From Neobacillus mesonae (GTDB lineage Bacteria; Bacillota; Bacilli; Bacillales; Cytobacillaceae), in NCBI RefSeq assembly GCF_001636315.1, contig NZ_KV440949.1, positions 4,606,084 through 4,670,083 of the forward strand: a stretch of 64,000 bases of DNA, in the 5' to 3' direction. How positions within the stretch are numbered: position 1 is the first letter of the stretch; each line of letters starts with the position of its first letter. A program made the translations under genes and the position numbers. Positions 53,676 to 62,699 of the stretch are shown here, one piece after another. Below the pieces are notes generated by a model, which was given only the letters and a program-made list of their open reading frames with translations, made no database searches and was not told the DNA's origin.

Positions 53676-53795
53676 AAAATACATAAACGACATTTCTATT
53701 TTCCGAAAATTTTGATACCATAATATAATAAATAAACTAGTTATTGACACGCTAAAAATTCTGAAACAAGTCTTAGATTGAGAGGCGATAAAAAA

Positions 53796-54593
53796 ATGGT
53801 ACTACAGCTAGAAGATGTTTCGTTAAAACGAGAAGGAAAATGGATCCTACAAAACATTAACTGGGAAATTAATCAAGGTGAGCATTGGGTGTTATTCGGG
53901 TTAAACGGGTCCGGTAAGACAGCGATATTAAATTTATTAAACGCTTATCATTTTCCGACACAAGGGAAGATTACCGTACTTGGTTTGGAATTTGGGAAGA
54001 CCTACTTAGGTGAAAAGCTGCGTAAACAAATTGGGTTTGTTTCTTCCTCCTTACAGGAAAAGCTTTACCCAAATGATAATGCGTTTGAGGTCGTGTTAAG
54101 CGGTGCATTTGCTTCCATTGGTTTATATGAAACACCGACAGATGAAATGAGGGAAAAGGCAGGTACATTGCTGGAGGAGATGGGATGTGATAAATATGCC
54201 AATCGGAGGTACGAATCATTGTCACAAGGGGAAAAACAGCGAGTGCAAATAGCCCGTGCCTTAATGGGAGAACCATCATTGCTTATTCTTGACGAGCCGA
54301 CAAATGGATTAGACTTTATTGCACGCGAGAAACTGCTGGAAACGGTTGAACGAATTGCCGCAAAACCAAATGCGCCGTCAATCATTTACGTAACCCACCA
54401 TGTAGAAGAAATATTGCCAGTATTCAATAAAACATTACTGTTAAAAGCAGGACAAATATTCGCCGCTGGCAACACCCAAGAAATGCTATCAAGCATACAG
54501 CTCTCGGAGTATTTTGACCTACCCGTTAGTGTTGTATGGGAGAACAATCGACCATTATTATCCAAAAAGCAAACGGTGTCAGGCACCATGTGA
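53796..54593 (+). CDS. ABC-type ATPase, YlmA-like (molybdate/other family, soluble)
   Basis: A 265-residue ATPase close in length and sequence character to B. subtilis YlmA. Walker A is GLNGSGKTA, signature LSQGEKQRVQIARAL, Walker B LLILDEP and switch His in YVTHHVEE. No membrane partner is adjacent. The last six residues (TVSGTM) are encoded by the left arm of a 49-bp repeat palindrome, so the C-terminus has been extended or replaced by repeat insertion. ATG 53796 follows GAGAGG. Confidence 0.85.
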   Translation: MVLQLEDVSLKREGKWILQNINWEINQGEHWVLFGLNGSGKTAILNLLNAYHFPTQGKITVLGLEFGKTYLGEKLRKQIGFVSSSLQEKLYPNDNAFEVVLSGAFASIGLYETPTDEMREKAGTLLEEMGCDKYANRRYESLSQGEKQRVQIARALMGEPSLLILDEPTNGLDFIAREKLLETVERIAAKPNAPSIIYVTHHVEEILPVFNKTLLLKAGQIFAAGNTQEMLSSIQLSEYFDLPVSVVWENNRPLLSKKQTVSGTM

Positions 54594-54620
54594 AATTTTC
54601 ACATGGTGCCTGACACCGTT
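54572..54620. repeat. 49-bp perfect palindrome containing GGTGTCAGGCACC
   Basis: Arms 54572-54595 and 54597-54620 are perfectly complementary over 24 bp with one central base. The outer core GGTGTCAGGCACC is the inverse of the 46590 repeat. It covers the end of the ABC ATPase gene and the gap to the convergent lysE gene. It could act as a bidirectional terminator or a mobile REP-type element. Confidence 0.9.
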
Positions 54621-54630
54621 AAAGAAACCG

Positions 54631-55260
54631 TTAATGCGCCTTCTCAAATGCTAATTTAATACCGAAACCTAACAGTGCTATGCCTGTAAGTCCTTGGACG
54701 GCTTTTTCGGTAGAGGGGCGTTTCATAAAGGCGCTGATTTGGTTGATTAAATAAATATATGGGATAAACCAGATTAATGTTAATAACGTATAGGTTAAGC
54801 CCATGATTAGAAACGGGAGGAGCGGTTCTTGCCCATGATCTACGAATTGAGGTAAAAAGGTCAAGAAAAAAACCGCTACTTTTGGATTAAGCAGATTCGT
54901 TAGAAAACCTTGGCGAAAACAATTCATCTGCCCCTCTTCAAGTATTGATGCTGTTTCTAACACATCTGAGGCTTCTTTTTTTCTTAATGACCATAATGTT
55001 TTAAACCCAAGATAGCCTAGATAAACAGCGCCGACATATTTGAGGATAGAAAATAACATGGCTGATTTTACAATTAATGCCGAGAGCCCGATTACTGCTG
55101 CCGTAGTGTGGATTAATAAGGCGCAGCACGTTCCGAATAATGTTTTTAGACCGCCTGTTTTTCCAACTGTAAGAGTATTCTTAGTTGCAATTGCGGTATC
55201 CGGTCCGGGTAAAATAATAAGAAGAATGCACAAAACTATAAAAGGATAAAAATGCTGCAA
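54631..55260 (-). CDS. LysE/RhtB-family amino acid exporter
   Basis: A 209-residue six-helix exporter with the family signature ILPGPDTAIATKNTLTVGKTGGLKTLFG and GFLTNLLNPKVAVFFLTFLPQFV. Exports an amino acid or homoserine-lactone-like compound; substrate unknown. It starts at TTG after GGGGGG. The stop is 10 bp from the large palindrome, which may terminate it. Confidence 0.88.
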   Translation of the reverse strand: MQHFYPFIVLCILLIILPGPDTAIATKNTLTVGKTGGLKTLFGTCCALLIHTTAAVIGLSALIVKSAMLFSILKYVGAVYLGYLGFKTLWSLRKKEASDVLETASILEEGQMNCFRQGFLTNLLNPKVAVFFLTFLPQFVDHGQEPLLPFLIMGLTYTLLTLIWFIPYIYLINQISAFMKRPSTEKAVQGLTGIALLGFGIKLAFEKAH

Positions 55261-57011: not shown

Positions 57012-57040
57012 CACTTCAAATGGGCTAATGACATAGTATG
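57012..57040 (+). promoter_or_regulatory. Candidate sigma-K promoter of the first GerP-like unit
   Basis: CACT (57012-57015), 16-nt spacer, CATAGTATG (57032-57040); this matches mACm-N15/16-CATAnnnTA except for the last base, as does the cotE candidate. Confidence 0.55.
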
Positions 57041-57074
57041 GATTTAAAAGATTTTGAGAAAGGGTTTGGAATGT

Positions 57075-57479
57075 ATGAATCATCGCACAGATTACAGTTA
57101 TTGGCCTTTTCCAGCAATTCAATTTCCATACTTTATATCCGGGTATATTACAAATGTAAATTTCAACCCGAATGAAGCCAAGCAGAAGATTGAGATAGAA
57201 AAAAAGGCAGAGGAAAATAAAAAGAATAAAAAGGACAAAGTGACTAAAGCCTTGATTCATATTGAAAACCTGCAAGCGGGGACAGTTTCGAATGCATCTG
57301 GGATTTTCACTGGTAAAAATATTCAAATAGGGTGGAGTTCTCATGGCAAATCTAATTCAGGATTTGGCTCTCTAGGGGGCCGTAATAATAAAGTAAACAA
57401 AAACACGAACGTTGTTTATGATAACGATCAAATCGATACCCCTATTGATGGCAGGGAAGTCCTTTATGAGAGAAAATAA
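57075..57479 (+). CDS. GerPA/GerPF-like protein with N-terminal extension
   Basis: A 134-residue protein. Residues about 60-125 form a GerPA/PF-like module (IHIENLQAG, ASGIFTGKNIQIGWSSHGKSNSGFGS, VVYDNDQIDTPI). The N-terminal 55 residues include an aromatic stretch (YSYWPFPAIQFPYFISGY) and a Lys/Glu-rich linker not typical of GerP proteins. GerP proteins are inner-coat proteins that allow germinants to reach the cortex. ATG 57075 follows GAGAAAGGG. First gene of a four-gene unit. Confidence 0.72.
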   Translation: MNHRTDYSYWPFPAIQFPYFISGYITNVNFNPNEAKQKIEIEKKAEENKKNKKDKVTKALIHIENLQAGTVSNASGIFTGKNIQIGWSSHGKSNSGFGSLGGRNNKVNKNTNVVYDNDQIDTPIDGREVLYERK

Positions 57480-57566
57480 ATTAATAATTTAGTAATGTGA
57501 AACATATCATTCTAAAATAGGGATGGTTTGTATACGTTAGAAGTAATGGACGGGAGGGGGCAGTTG

Positions 57567-58127
57567 ATGCTTGATGATAAAGAAAAGTTGGACAAACTTT
57601 ACAATCAAGTACAAAAAATCCACTCCATGCTGGAAAAAATGACAAAGAATGAAAAGGTTTATTTTATTAATATAGAAAAAGTAGATTTTCATGGGCCGAT
57701 ATTGGACGAGCTGGAATTTATTTTTGATAAAATCGATGTCAAAGAGGTAAGCGGCGCGCTAAATATAGGCAATAATTTTGGAGTAAGTGTTGAAGGGAAT
57801 AATGAGAATAAGAATAAAAATGTGAAAGCTTCGGGTATGAACATAAATTCAAAGGAAAAGGTTGAAAAAACCTCCAACACAAATACAACTGCTAATGAGG
57901 AAAATCCAAGCGGTGAAAAGTTTTCTGATCTTGAGAAAATATTAGAGAAGAAGCTTGAGCAGGCATTCCAAAAAGGCCCTAAAACAAAGAAAAAAAGTCA
58001 CGATTCCCCCAAGAATAGGGAGCAAAACCTCCGTGTTCTTCCTGTTGAGAACTTAAAGCAACCCGGCCAGCTGCGCAAAATCAGCATAAATAATAAAACT
58101 ATTGTGAAGCCGGATCATGAAAGCTAA
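57567..58127 (+). CDS. GerPC-like coat protein
   Basis: A 186-residue protein. The N-terminal coiled-coil (LDDKEKLDKLYNQVQKIHSML) is followed by VYFINIEKVDFHG and IDVKEVSGALNIGNN, resembling the GerPC pattern of helical N-terminus plus 'EGTLNIG' block. The C-terminal half is low-complexity and basic (KGPKTKKKSHDSPKNRE). The ATG at 57567 has GGGAGGGGG upstream; longer in-frame starts lack one. Likely the scaffold partner of the small GerPA/PF-like proteins (inference). Confidence 0.65.
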   Translation: MLDDKEKLDKLYNQVQKIHSMLEKMTKNEKVYFINIEKVDFHGPILDELEFIFDKIDVKEVSGALNIGNNFGVSVEGNNENKNKNVKASGMNINSKEKVEKTSNTNTTANEENPSGEKFSDLEKILEKKLEQAFQKGPKTKKKSHDSPKNREQNLRVLPVENLKQPGQLRKISINNKTIVKPDHES

Positions 58128-58209
58128 ATTTAATTCTTGAATATATAAGCTTCTAGTGAATATACCTAACAATATCTTGCTACTCCGTAATCAATTGGAG
58201 GGGATTACA

Positions 58210-58425
58210 TTGAAAATTGTCCTTAAACAATTAAATGTAGAGAAGGTTAGTCATTCTTCAGGTTTGTTCTCAGGAGAAAATTTACAAATGGATTGGAAAT
58301 CTTATAAGAAAATAAACGAAGGTTTTGGAACAATGCAAGGAAGTCGCAACGTGTCAACCAATAATCAGCATATTGTGAAAAAGGTTGATTTTGAGGGCAG
58401 AAAAGTAACTAAAGATGAGTCGTAA
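58210..58425 (+). CDS. Small GerPA/GerPF-like protein
   Basis: A 71-residue single-module protein: VSHSSGLFSGENLQMDWKS, then INEGFGTMQGSRN. It starts at a TTG preceded by GGAGGGG, giving the normal GerPA/PF length (about 70-75); an earlier GTG would add 18 residues without a ribosome site. It ends 14 bp before the next gene. Confidence 0.7.
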   Translation: MKIVLKQLNVEKVSHSSGLFSGENLQMDWKSYKKINEGFGTMQGSRNVSTNNQHIVKKVDFEGRKVTKDES

Positions 58426-58439
58426 CAGGAGGTGTACCT

Positions 58440-58826
58440 ATGTCCAATAGTTTGTCTCCTAATTTTTTTATTAAGACGTTTACCATTCATTCGGTGGATG
58501 GTGCTTCGTGTGTAAACATTGGCACCAATCGTCCAATTGGTTTTACAAGCTTTAAAAAACATAATCAAGGCTTTGGATCTGTTAGCGGCAGTCATAATAC
58601 CATTGATGGAATAAAAACATTATTAAACGATGAATCCCTATTTGATCTGTTTAGAGATTCAACGAATGAGGATATGGCGTGGGCGAAAGAAATAAGAGAT
58701 CTGGTGATATCAAAAGTGATGAATTATTTGGAGGAGGCCGGGGAGGCAGAGGATTCCGAAATCGATGAAGAAAATCCTATTGAATTTTTTGATGATCATG
58801 GCATAGACGAAGATGAAGATAATTGA
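58440..58826 (+). CDS. GerPA/GerPF-like protein with acidic C-terminal tail
   Basis: A 128-residue protein. The N-terminal 65 residues carry the module (FTIHSVDGASCVNIGTNRP, KKHNQGFGSVSGSHN); the rest is a helical and then very acidic tail (AEDSEIDEENPIEFFDDHG). AGGAGGTG gives a clear start. The module keeps a Cys (ASCVN) not seen in the others. Last gene of the first unit, followed by a terminator. Confidence 0.68.
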   Translation: MSNSLSPNFFIKTFTIHSVDGASCVNIGTNRPIGFTSFKKHNQGFGSVSGSHNTIDGIKTLLNDESLFDLFRDSTNEDMAWAKEIRDLVISKVMNYLEEAGEAEDSEIDEENPIEFFDDHGIDEDEDN

Positions 58827-58840
58827 CCAAAAGCAAAGAG

Positions 58841-58871
58841 AGCATTGGGTAACAAAATCCAATGCTTTTTT
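58841..58871 (+). terminator. Terminator of the first GerP-like unit
   Basis: AGCATTGG and CCAATGCT form a perfect 8-bp stem followed by six Ts. Confidence 0.85.
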
Positions 58872-58891
58872 ATATTTCTTTGGAAAAAATG

Positions 58892-58919
58892 AACAATGAA
58901 AATGTTCAATCATACTGTA
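58892..58919 (+). promoter_or_regulatory. Candidate sigma-K promoter of the second GerP-like unit
   Basis: AACA (58892-58895), 15-nt spacer, CATACTGTA (58911-58919), a full match to mACm-N15/16-CATAnnnTA. Confidence 0.65.
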
Positions 58920-58999
58920 TTATGGAAGGGTTTTAGGGAGAGGAGTCTATTCACCTGGATTTGTCATTATAAAAAATGACCATGGTTCGGAGGCTGGAG

Positions 59000-59533
59000 A
59001 TGGAAAATAAAATTATCCATGATGTAAATATAACGGGAATAACGGTCCATAACATTGATTCATCATCCGGTATTTTTGTGGGTATAAATAACGCTAATTA
59101 TTGGACTTCACAACTTAAAGCTAATCAAGGATTCGGACCACTATCTTCTTCACAAGCCATTCAAAACATTAATGTTGTGGTCGATAATGATTGCATTGAT
59201 GCCCCTATAGAAAATAATGTTCAAATCCCTAACAGACAAGATTTTATCGGTGTGGATGTCAAAAAGGCTGATGAAGCTGCATTAGTAAATCATCATAACA
59301 TTATACAGGAAATTAATAATATTGATGTGGATGCAATAAATGTGTTCTCTATGGATACGAATGCAGCCATTTCCGTTGGAGAGAATGTATTAGACGGATG
59401 GTCCGCCCACTCGAAACGCAATGAGGGAACAGGGCGCTCAATGGGTATTACGGAGCAGATATTAAATACAAATATTATCATGGATCAGGACATCATTGAT
59501 GCCCAGATGAACGATGTTAAGATTACAAAATAA
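59000..59533 (+). CDS. Tandem two-module GerPA/GerPF-like protein
   Basis: A 177-residue protein with two modules in tandem: residues about 8-75 (SSSGIFVGINNANYWTSQ, NQGFGPLSS, VVDNDCIDAPI) and about 108-172 (NAAISVGENVLDGWSAHSK, NEGTG, IMDQDIIDAQM). The second module is nearer to that of the next gene than to the first, suggesting intragenic gain by duplication. CGGAGG precedes the ATG at 59000. First gene of the second unit. Confidence 0.72.
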   Translation: MENKIIHDVNITGITVHNIDSSSGIFVGINNANYWTSQLKANQGFGPLSSSQAIQNINVVVDNDCIDAPIENNVQIPNRQDFIGVDVKKADEAALVNHHNIIQEINNIDVDAINVFSMDTNAAISVGENVLDGWSAHSKRNEGTGRSMGITEQILNTNIIMDQDIIDAQMNDVKITK

Positions 59534-59553
59534 ATAAGAAAGAGGTGTCTTTC

Positions 59554-59799
59554 ATGGCGATTCCTGTGGGAGTTGGAGCAATCAACATCATTATGCAGAA
59601 TACGAATAGTTCTGTTTCAGTAGGCGAAAACCAGATTTCAGGTTGGTCTGCACATAGAAAGACGAACAACGGAGTAGGTAACCAGGCCGGATTTTATGTC
59701 AATATATCGAATCTCTCGCTTATCTGGGATAATGATTTAAATGACGGGCAAATCATCGATCCGGATATTATTCCTGGTCTTCAAACGCAAGCACTTTAA
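59554..59799 (+). CDS. Small GerPA/GerPF-like protein
   Basis: An 81-residue single-module protein: VGVGAINIIMQNTNSSVSVGENQ, GWSAHRKTNNGVGNQAG and LIWDNDLNDGQI. The start 'MAIPVGVGAINI' resembles GerPF, which begins MPAIVGAV. AAGAGGTG is the ribosome site. A terminator follows. Confidence 0.73.
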   Translation: MAIPVGVGAINIIMQNTNSSVSVGENQISGWSAHRKTNNGVGNQAGFYVNISNLSLIWDNDLNDGQIIDPDIIPGLQTQAL

Positions 59800-59824
59800 G
59801 TTTAACTATGCTATCTCTAAGAAG

Positions 59825-59854
59825 AAAAACGCAAGGAATCTCTTGCGTTTTTTT
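59825..59854 (+). terminator. Terminator of the second GerP-like unit
   Basis: AAAAACGCAAG and CTTGCGTTTTT form an 11-bp stem with a T run. Confidence 0.88.
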
Positions 59855-61265: not shown

Positions 61266-61291
61266 AAAAGATAGGGTTAACCCTATCTTTT
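61266..61291 (-). terminator. 26-bp perfect palindrome after the MerR fusion gene
   Basis: Perfect self-complementarity over 61266-61291 (core GATAGGGTTAACCCTATC) with a T-rich tail on the minus strand. It overlaps the end of the MerR fusion gene. Confidence 0.8.
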
Positions 61292-62500
61292 GCCGAAAAA
61301 ACTATAGGAAACGACTTCTTCTCCTTCAACAAAGAAATCTTCGTATTTTCCTCCTCTGGTAATCGAATCCGAAATTTTTTCATCCAGCGTTTTATAACGT
61401 AAGCCGTTAATTTTTTTCTTTATATGAGTAAGTGTGAAATTATCTCGATAGCTGGAAGCTATTTTACTTTTTTGACTAAAATTTCTAAATGTTAAATAGG
61501 TCCCTAATAAGGATCCTTCCGGTTTGATAAGCGAATCAACTTGGCTTAGCAAAAATTCCTCATTTTCAAAGCTGTAATTACTTGTCCCCGTTCCATCAAT
61601 TAGTAGATCAACAGAGTGATGGGGCAGCGGAATTTCAAGGAAATCTGCACAAATAAACAGAAATTTTCTTTTCGAATGAGATCGTTCCAGCAAGTTTTTT
61701 AAAAATTGATGGCGTTCAAGGTTGTGATCTACACAAATATAGAGGCAGTCCTCTGGCAAGGATTGATAAACATTCCTTAGAAAAAAACCGATTCCGGTGC
61801 CTAATTCCATTACTACTTTTTGATGCAAATCCATTTGCTCGAGCTTCCTTTTCGACCATTGAAGGCATTTATTAAGATTTTCCAGGAAGAGTGGGTCGGT
61901 TTCATGAATATATTTCGAGATACTATTTTCCAGTCGATTTCTATTTTTCGTTTTGAATTGCTTTCCTGCCATTAAAATGCCAGATTCAATCAAATATTCC
62001 TCACCACAGTTACATGGCAGCTTTCCGCTTATGATCTGATTTCTGTTGATCACGCCTTCTTTTAGAGTTAGCAGACTATTACAATGATGACATGTTAGCA
62101 TGCCCAGCAGCGTAAGATCGATTCCCATTTTTGAAGAAGACTCCAATGTTTTGGCTGATAACTCATCTAATTTTAACTTTAGCTTTTTCTTTGCTTTCAT
62201 TAAGTTATTAATTTCATGTTCCAGATTTTCATATTTATCTAAAAAAAGAGATTGATAGTACGTATCTTCTTCATAAGGGGTTAATTGGCCAAAGTTTTTA
62301 TAATGGGAAATCGTTTTGATTTCGTTTAAACTAAAGCCCATTCCTTTCAGTTCCAAAATATGCTCCAAATCTTTTTGGCAGACCTCATCGAAGAAGTATT
62401 GTCCACCCTTCTTTTCGGGAACAATCAATCCTAAATCCATATAGTGCCTAATGGTGTCTATTGTTAGCCCATTTACTTGACCAAATTTGCCGATTCTCAT
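61283..62500 (-). CDS. MerR-type HTH fused to zinc ribbon and SAM methyltransferase
   Basis: A 405-residue fusion. Residues 1-70 are a MerR HTH (RIGKFGQVNGLTIDTIRHYMDLGLIVPEKKGGQYFF); about 80-130 a coiled coil; about 135-165 a four-Cys-type ribbon (CHHC and CNC); about 205-390 a class I methyltransferase with motif I MELGTGIGFF and LLIDGTGTSNYSF. The domain combination suggests a regulator whose effector domain is a methyltransferase fold; a catalytic role is possible. ATG 62500 follows GGAGTG; a longer start is unsupported. It probably regulates the MFS gene that follows (inference). Confidence 0.82.
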   Translation of the reverse strand: MRIGKFGQVNGLTIDTIRHYMDLGLIVPEKKGGQYFFDEVCQKDLEHILELKGMGFSLNEIKTISHYKNFGQLTPYEEDTYYQSLFLDKYENLEHEINNLMKAKKKLKLKLDELSAKTLESSSKMGIDLTLLGMLTCHHCNSLLTLKEGVINRNQIISGKLPCNCGEEYLIESGILMAGKQFKTKNRNRLENSISKYIHETDPLFLENLNKCLQWSKRKLEQMDLHQKVVMELGTGIGFFLRNVYQSLPEDCLYICVDHNLERHQFLKNLLERSHSKRKFLFICADFLEIPLPHHSVDLLIDGTGTSNYSFENEEFLLSQVDSLIKPEGSLLGTYLTFRNFSQKSKIASSYRDNFTLTHIKKKINGLRYKTLDEKISDSITRGGKYEDFFVEGEEVVSYSFFGKR

Positions 62501-62699
62501 CTTATCACTCCAGAACAAAATTCATTCCCTCATTAACTTATTCTCTTAGAAAATCGAAATCCCTACAACATTCCTTAAATATTACATGGAAAAGGCAGAC
62601 GGGACAATTATCCATTTTTTCTAATCTATTATATTAGCATTTCCCCTGTTGGAGGGAGGCGCATAAATATAAGTAAACAATTAAGGAGGTGCATTTGTT

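Follow-up and report, generated by a model that had tools for sequence, protein, structure and literature searches.

Introduction

The crossing of the spore coat by small molecules is understood mainly through a single operon, gerP, whose products, according to the accessible part of a review, reside in the inner coat and are thought to form germinant channels (PMC11841064). In the accessible parts of other sources, gerPA and cotM are assigned to the sigma-K regulon (PMC517825), CotM and CotP are listed among spore coat genes (PMC3533761), and gerPF2 and gerPF3 of B. anthracis are given as extra gerPF genes, which resemble the genes described below in lying outside the gerP operon, with no GerPC paralogue or Hsp20 mentioned there (PMC2817736). 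Here we describe a six-gene cassette at positions 57013-59854 of a 64,000-nucleotide stretch of the Neobacillus mesonae genome (C1:4606084-4670083 of 5.8 Mb; the whole stretch is called the window). On balance, and with some reserve, we read it as encoding a GerP-type spore coat assembly that is paralogous to the canonical gerP of the same genome, is driven by sigma-K and likely tunes passage through the coat.

The basis of this reading is gene content, profile homology, linkage and promoter conservation. From these we infer late mother-cell expression, a complex and a location in the coat, and a role in germinant permeability is suggested by analogy with GerP. In titles and abstracts among the matches listed in a literature search that left subscription papers mostly outside its reach, no GerPC paralogue or GerP-Hsp20 cluster was described.

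Results

Gene content of the cassette and its homology to GerP

The genes, whose products are named P1 to P6 in gene order, all lie on the plus strand in two units: P1 (57075-57479), P2 (57567-58127), P3 (58210-58425) and P4 (58440-58826), closed by a terminator, followed by P5 (59000-59533) and P6 (59554-59799), closed by another. Six copies of a GerPA/GerPF-like unit, hereafter the module, are spread over five proteins (P1 and P3-P6), and the sixth protein, P2, is GerPC-like. A preliminary description made from the sequence had proposed this gene order, the two units with their sigma-K-type boxes and terminators, and the presence of an N-terminally extended (P1), an acidic-tailed (P4) and a tandem (P5) member; all of these were found in place, the box of unit 1 being one base off.

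Like the cassette, gerP has six genes, for one GerPC-type protein and small module proteins, and the reading of it as five modules plus GerPC, the formula of the cassette, is suggestive. The canonical locus is one operon, whereas the cassette consists of two units with a terminator between them and has another composition, as had been noted beforehand; it includes tandem and acidic-tailed members, its proteins lie below the Pfam cut-offs, and P2 has no significant match beyond the GerPC core.

To compare the families at the profile level, we used hhalign with 20 column-shuffled targets as controls for each comparison. The module family, represented by 361 segments from relatives, matched canonical GerPF with a probability of 92.3% (shuffles at most 2.2%) and canonical GerPA with 85.8% (shuffles at most 9.6%), and the GerPC-like family matched canonical GerPC with 94.2% (shuffles at most 1.5%); against Hsp20 the two families gave 0.1% each. 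The canonical subunits were named by gene order and by what we take to be their identities. Kinship of five proteins with GerPA/GerPF and of one with GerPC, proposed earlier, is thus borne out by profile search, with Pfam scores staying sub-threshold. In small sets of open reading frames (ORFs), a canonical GerPC hidden Markov model (HMM) matches the GerPC-like proteins of L196 (E 2.5e-6) and L040 (E 1.5e-4), and the module was recovered from related loci, at low E-values, by an HMM built on the window's six copies. The GerPC-like protein of one relative, L198, exceeds the Pfam cut-off for PF10737 (24.4 bits).

Candidate promoters and terminators

A sigma-K-type box, AC-N17-CATAGTATG, one base off CATAnnnTA, lies upstream of unit 1 (57013-57040, plus strand), and another, AC-N16-CATACTGTA, upstream of unit 2 (58893-58919, plus strand). 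The letters of the pattern are those we take to be the sigma-K consensus. The gap of the sigma-K promoter pattern is given in the accessible part of PMC517825. Control of this type would be shared with gerPA. Within the window the pattern AC-N16-CATAnnnTA occurs 5 times against 2.0 expected, and at least five occurrences were found in 6/100 shuffles; by themselves, the boxes are weak evidence. They become convincing because of their conservation: both blocks are conserved in and align with their counterparts in Lederbergia citri, where the leader DNA downstream has diverged, and AC-N15-17-CATAnnnT[A/G] is present upstream of 20/22 tandem-module genes as opposed to 10/443 control ORFs of the same loci, in agreement with the predicted sigma-K-type promoters. 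These 22 rows take in close congeners, and two of them come from one locus (L106). Among cassette 'first genes', which like the controls were chosen by a mechanical ORF rule, the box was found in 42/252 cases (shuffle mean 3.7/252). The outcome changed little when the spacing was set to 16-18 (20/22 tandem genes, 41/252 first genes, 11/443 controls), and the strict TA form gave 15/22, 29/252 and 4/443, respectively.

Both terminator hairpins are far more stable than expected from 200 shuffled sequences. The hairpin of unit 1 (58836-58871, plus strand; z -5.37) was also matched by a pattern scan; that of unit 2 (59823-59854, plus strand; z -4.30) is absent from the pattern-scan list.

Linkage to Hsp20-like genes in relatives

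Relatives of the cassette were collected in two ways. The best 80 of 136 related stretches from a scan with the P4 family came from Bacillaceae, Paenibacillus, Alicyclobacillus, metagenome-assembled genomes of Thermoactinomycetaceae and Halanaerobiales, and others; of these loci 79 carry an Hsp20-like gene, 75 a GerPC-like gene, 74 both, and 24 a tandem module. Proteins were labelled Hsp20 with an HMM that was extended in three rounds; when five Hsp20-bearing proteins were submitted to Pfam, three passed the HSP20 cut-off (E 2.1e-12 to 3.2e-16) and those of L059 and L055 failed.

The second collection, chosen to avoid recruitment through P4, comprised every GerPC-like match that two even samples gave in genomes other than the window's. 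The phylum sample gave 9 GerPC-like loci in 8/158 other genomes (E<=1e-5), all outside the window's class, and the class sample gave 18 in 16/150 other genomes (E<=1e-7), 9 of the 18 being from one family and 8 from one genus. An Hsp20-like gene was found nearby in 9/9 and 16/18 of these loci, i.e. 25/27, and module genes were likewise near in 9/9 outside the class and 16/18 within it; Hsp20 is missing at L223 and L229, a module gene at L226 and L229, and at L220 the GerPC-like frame is masked in the annotation, where an overlapping frame bears the label. Canonical gerPC loci differ in this respect, with 0/30 having an Hsp20-like ORF within 1.5 kb, a comparison that is uneven in that the flanks searched elsewhere reached up to about 5 kb.

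Outside the window's class, L204:4522-5262 (minus strand) encodes in one 246-residue frame both a GerPC-like part (E 1.4e-12 with our own HMM) and an HSP20 domain (Pfam E 2.1e-12, residues 142-235). This fusion frame was found in one genome, where a sequencing error is possible, and its GerPC part is not named by Pfam; no such frame was seen in 101 stretches (the window and L039-L138).

Within the genus, the GerPC-like profile has a match at E<=1e-3 in 45/61 genomes (counting the window's), a share that is an overestimate because some of the weakest matches overlap canonical GerPC (two were checked, in G019 and G021). The distribution of the cassette is patchy and extends outside the class. 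We also considered restriction to spore formers as judged by SpoIVA, a marker that does not discriminate, being present in 138/159 genomes; of the eight genomes other than the window's with a GerPC-like match, seven have it, and the remaining one, G176, has a completeness of 72%.

The linkage to Hsp20-like genes bears on a different interpretation, according to which the cassette builds a structural or protective coat layer, takes no part in germinant passage and has only its ancestry in common with GerP. Coat proteins of the Hsp20 type are indeed known, namely CotM and CotP, and several such clusters occur in one genome beside an intact gerP; however, the GerPC-like subunit places the cassette with the gerP type and not with ordinary coat proteins, and we regard a purely structural role as rather unlikely.

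The window version compared with that of Lederbergia citri

The nearest relative found of the window cassette is that of L. citri, which provides the closest match found to P4 (64% identity). In a P4 tree, the window protein groups with it (support 100/97), in a phylogeny with few columns and many open forks, and the P4 proteins of six congeners with this cassette type (L047-L052) belong to a different clade. The window version may be the product of either transfer or descent from an old paralogue. In L. citri the order is P1, P2, an Hsp20-like gene on the other strand, P3, P4, P5, P6, the Hsp20-like protein being below the Pfam HSP20 cut-off (E 0.035). The window cassette shares with its relatives the GerPC-like and module genes and differs in having no Hsp20.

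Evidence that weighs against the GerP-type reading

Several of our results count against a GerP-type assembly under sigma-K. No window protein reaches a Pfam gathering cut-off: P1 and P3-P6 score 14.2-19.2 bits against PF10676 (gerPA; cut-off 27.3 bits), P2 scores 13.4 bits against PF10737 (GerPC; cut-off 22.4 bits), and a genome-wide PF10676 search placed no match in the window. At the profile level, the six modules of the window taken by themselves reach 58.6% with GerPF and 2.7% with GerPA, the P4 sub-family by itself no more than 3.8% with any canonical GerP profile, and the module family 4.5-19.9% with GerPB, GerPD and GerPE, which match one another at 90.5-94.3%, GerPA at 56.6-73.5% and GerPF at 5.1-29.1%. 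With a mean predicted local distance difference test (pLDDT) score of 61.5 for P2 and 65.2 for P6, the AlphaFold2 models are of too low a quality to reveal a fold; in the P2 model an N-terminal helix is the sole confident part. The box was found upstream of just 9/90 Hsp20-first and 0/21 P4-first genes, with 12/102 for single-module-first and 1/17 for GerPC-like-first genes; because the box is seldom found in these classes, it is the tandem-gene unit that carries the promoter evidence. Finally, the window cassette is without an Hsp20-like gene, there being no gene between P2 and P3.

The sub-threshold Pfam scores, together with the finding that perfect matches to the box pattern are not uncommon in the window, would be expected if small proteins rich in N, G and D resembled GerP by chance and had nothing to do with it or with sporulation. 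The profile matches as compared with shuffles, the excess of boxes upstream of tandem genes over controls, the GerPC-like partner and the recurrence of the clusters speak against coincidence, to which we give hardly any credence.

The interval between P2 and P3 is empty here and holds the Hsp20-like gene in L. citri, which could also mean that the cassette is a paralogue in decay, already deprived of that gene and left with little function; the best match of the L. citri Hsp20-like protein in the window's genome, in a cluster at 462 kb, is just 28% identical. However, six open frames out of six, all with plausible ribosome-binding sites, stand beside intact promoter blocks and terminators, which makes decay very improbable. 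A GerP-type assembly thus remains the reading we prefer.

Features of the individual proteins

PF10676 is the top Pfam match of P3, P4, P5 and P6 and the second of P1, for which another family scores slightly higher. P1 (134 residues; E 0.011) has a single module, located at residues 68-136 of a longer ORF by the HMM of window modules; translation might instead begin at an in-frame GTG at 57240. The N-terminal extension of P1 so far stands alone, residues 1-46 having no stop-free match in the 60 genomes searched. P2 (about 186 residues) has PF10737 as its best match (E 0.081). P3 (about 71 residues; E 0.0015) is a short single module, P4 (128 residues; E 0.054) a module with an acidic tail, P5 (about 177 residues; E 0.0029, in two stretches) a tandem that the HMM of window modules also resolves into two domains, and P6 (about 81 residues; E 0.013) a single module. 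On account of ribosome-binding sites and homologue lengths, four starts were moved inward, and those at 57567 (P2), 58210 (P3, a TTG), 59000 (P5) and 59554 (P6) appear likely.

Family alignments were made from P5 (tandem; A1), P4 (A2), the GerPC-like proteins (A4, 32 rows, used for the P2 model) and P6 (A5, 101 rows, used for the P6 model). A search of PDB sequences with A5 revealed no protein of known structure that could be convincingly related to the module; its only matches, CurA (E 0.0076) and Lmo0181 (E 0.31), were not accepted as homologues. NCBIfam and PHROGs yielded nothing useful for the six proteins.

Other GerP-type loci in the same genome

The canonical gerP operon is present at C1:4238102-4240125, away from the window, so the objection that the cassette might be the only gerP locus does not apply. 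The cassette had been called a second system: its separateness from gerP stands, and the count does not, as the genome holds two further GerPC-like loci, a short GerPC-like frame and more module clusters. Of the 17 modules that profile A5 matches in the genome, six belong to the cassette. The GerPC-like gene at C1:427379 adjoins an Hsp20 gene, with no module gene seen nearby. The one at C1:1662835 belongs to a second module cluster (L040:2764-4825, or G000:C1:1662763-1664824), which has its own GerPC-like and P4-like genes and in which no Hsp20 was found; clusters resembling it are present in other Neobacillus (L057, L058, L195). Four single-module genes stand in a row at L041:3767-4869 (G000:C1:4933766-4934868); no GerPC-like or Hsp20 gene was found next to this row.

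In the cluster at 462 kb, two genes of the gerPA family and two of the Hsp20-like kind occur with a GerPC-like frame of 68 residues. Hsp20 genes beside two gerPA-type genes, and then a GerPC-like frame, are seen at L196:2302-4039 in N. drentensis, where the frame has 126 residues, and at L043:2019-3793 in the window's genome, where it has only 68. A record labelled Bacillus tequilensis KCTC 13622 (L097) contains a complete cassette, Hsp20 included, and at another site an Hsp20 gene next to a pair of gerPA-family genes. Such a pair next to Hsp20 presumably corresponds, in names and neighbourhood, to ydgA-ydgB-cotP of B. subtilis. These pairs resemble the cassettes in having modules beside Hsp20; they differ in that their modules exceed the PF10676 cut-off and are fewer, and in the shortness of the GerPC-like frame.

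Neighbourhood of the cassette

An aromatic monooxygenase had been noted as a neighbour, and an HpaB match does lie in this region. HpaB was rejected as a cassette partner: among the stretches compared it matched only the window's own region, and the adjacency looks incidental. Upstream, at 53778-55260, are genes named by eye as an ATP-binding cassette (ABC) ATPase and an exporter, with 77% and 74% identical counterparts in G059 (L057:2031-3558) beside its second-type cluster; given these flanking counterparts, one neighbourhood harbours distinct cassettes across species. At 61283-62518 (minus strand), a gene encoding a protein with a MerR-type DNA-binding domain at its N-terminus and a methyltransferase domain at its C-terminus adjoins a major facilitator superfamily (MFS) transporter gene.

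Discussion

From the features described above, a scheme for the GerP-type assembly may be proposed. Transcription of both units would be driven by sigma-K and take place late in sporulation, in the mother cell, and the GerPC-like protein, with its predicted N-terminal helix and conserved core, would serve as a scaffold with which the module proteins, the acidic-tailed and tandem ones included, would pack. In relatives, the Hsp20-like protein may join the same assembly as a chaperone or a structural partner of the GerPC-like subunit. By analogy with GerP, the likeliest effect would be to set the passage of germinants, calcium dipicolinate (Ca-DPA) or harmful agents through the coat.

A broader proposal is tentative: spore formers of several classes within the phylum may possess an undescribed coat assembly in which a GerPC core binds Hsp20 (alpha-crystallin) and several GerPA-like modules. 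Canonical gerP and the Hsp20-linked gerPA-type loci would then be offshoots of one old system, and the window would hold a version of it without Hsp20.

GerPC relatives exist outside the class to which the window belongs. A sister cassette with an Hsp20 partner, together with a natural fusion frame, offers a testable handle on how a GerP-type assembly is built, and the L097 record, as a relative of a laboratory species, may allow such tests. The cassette may also help to explain why some species hold several GerP-type assemblies.

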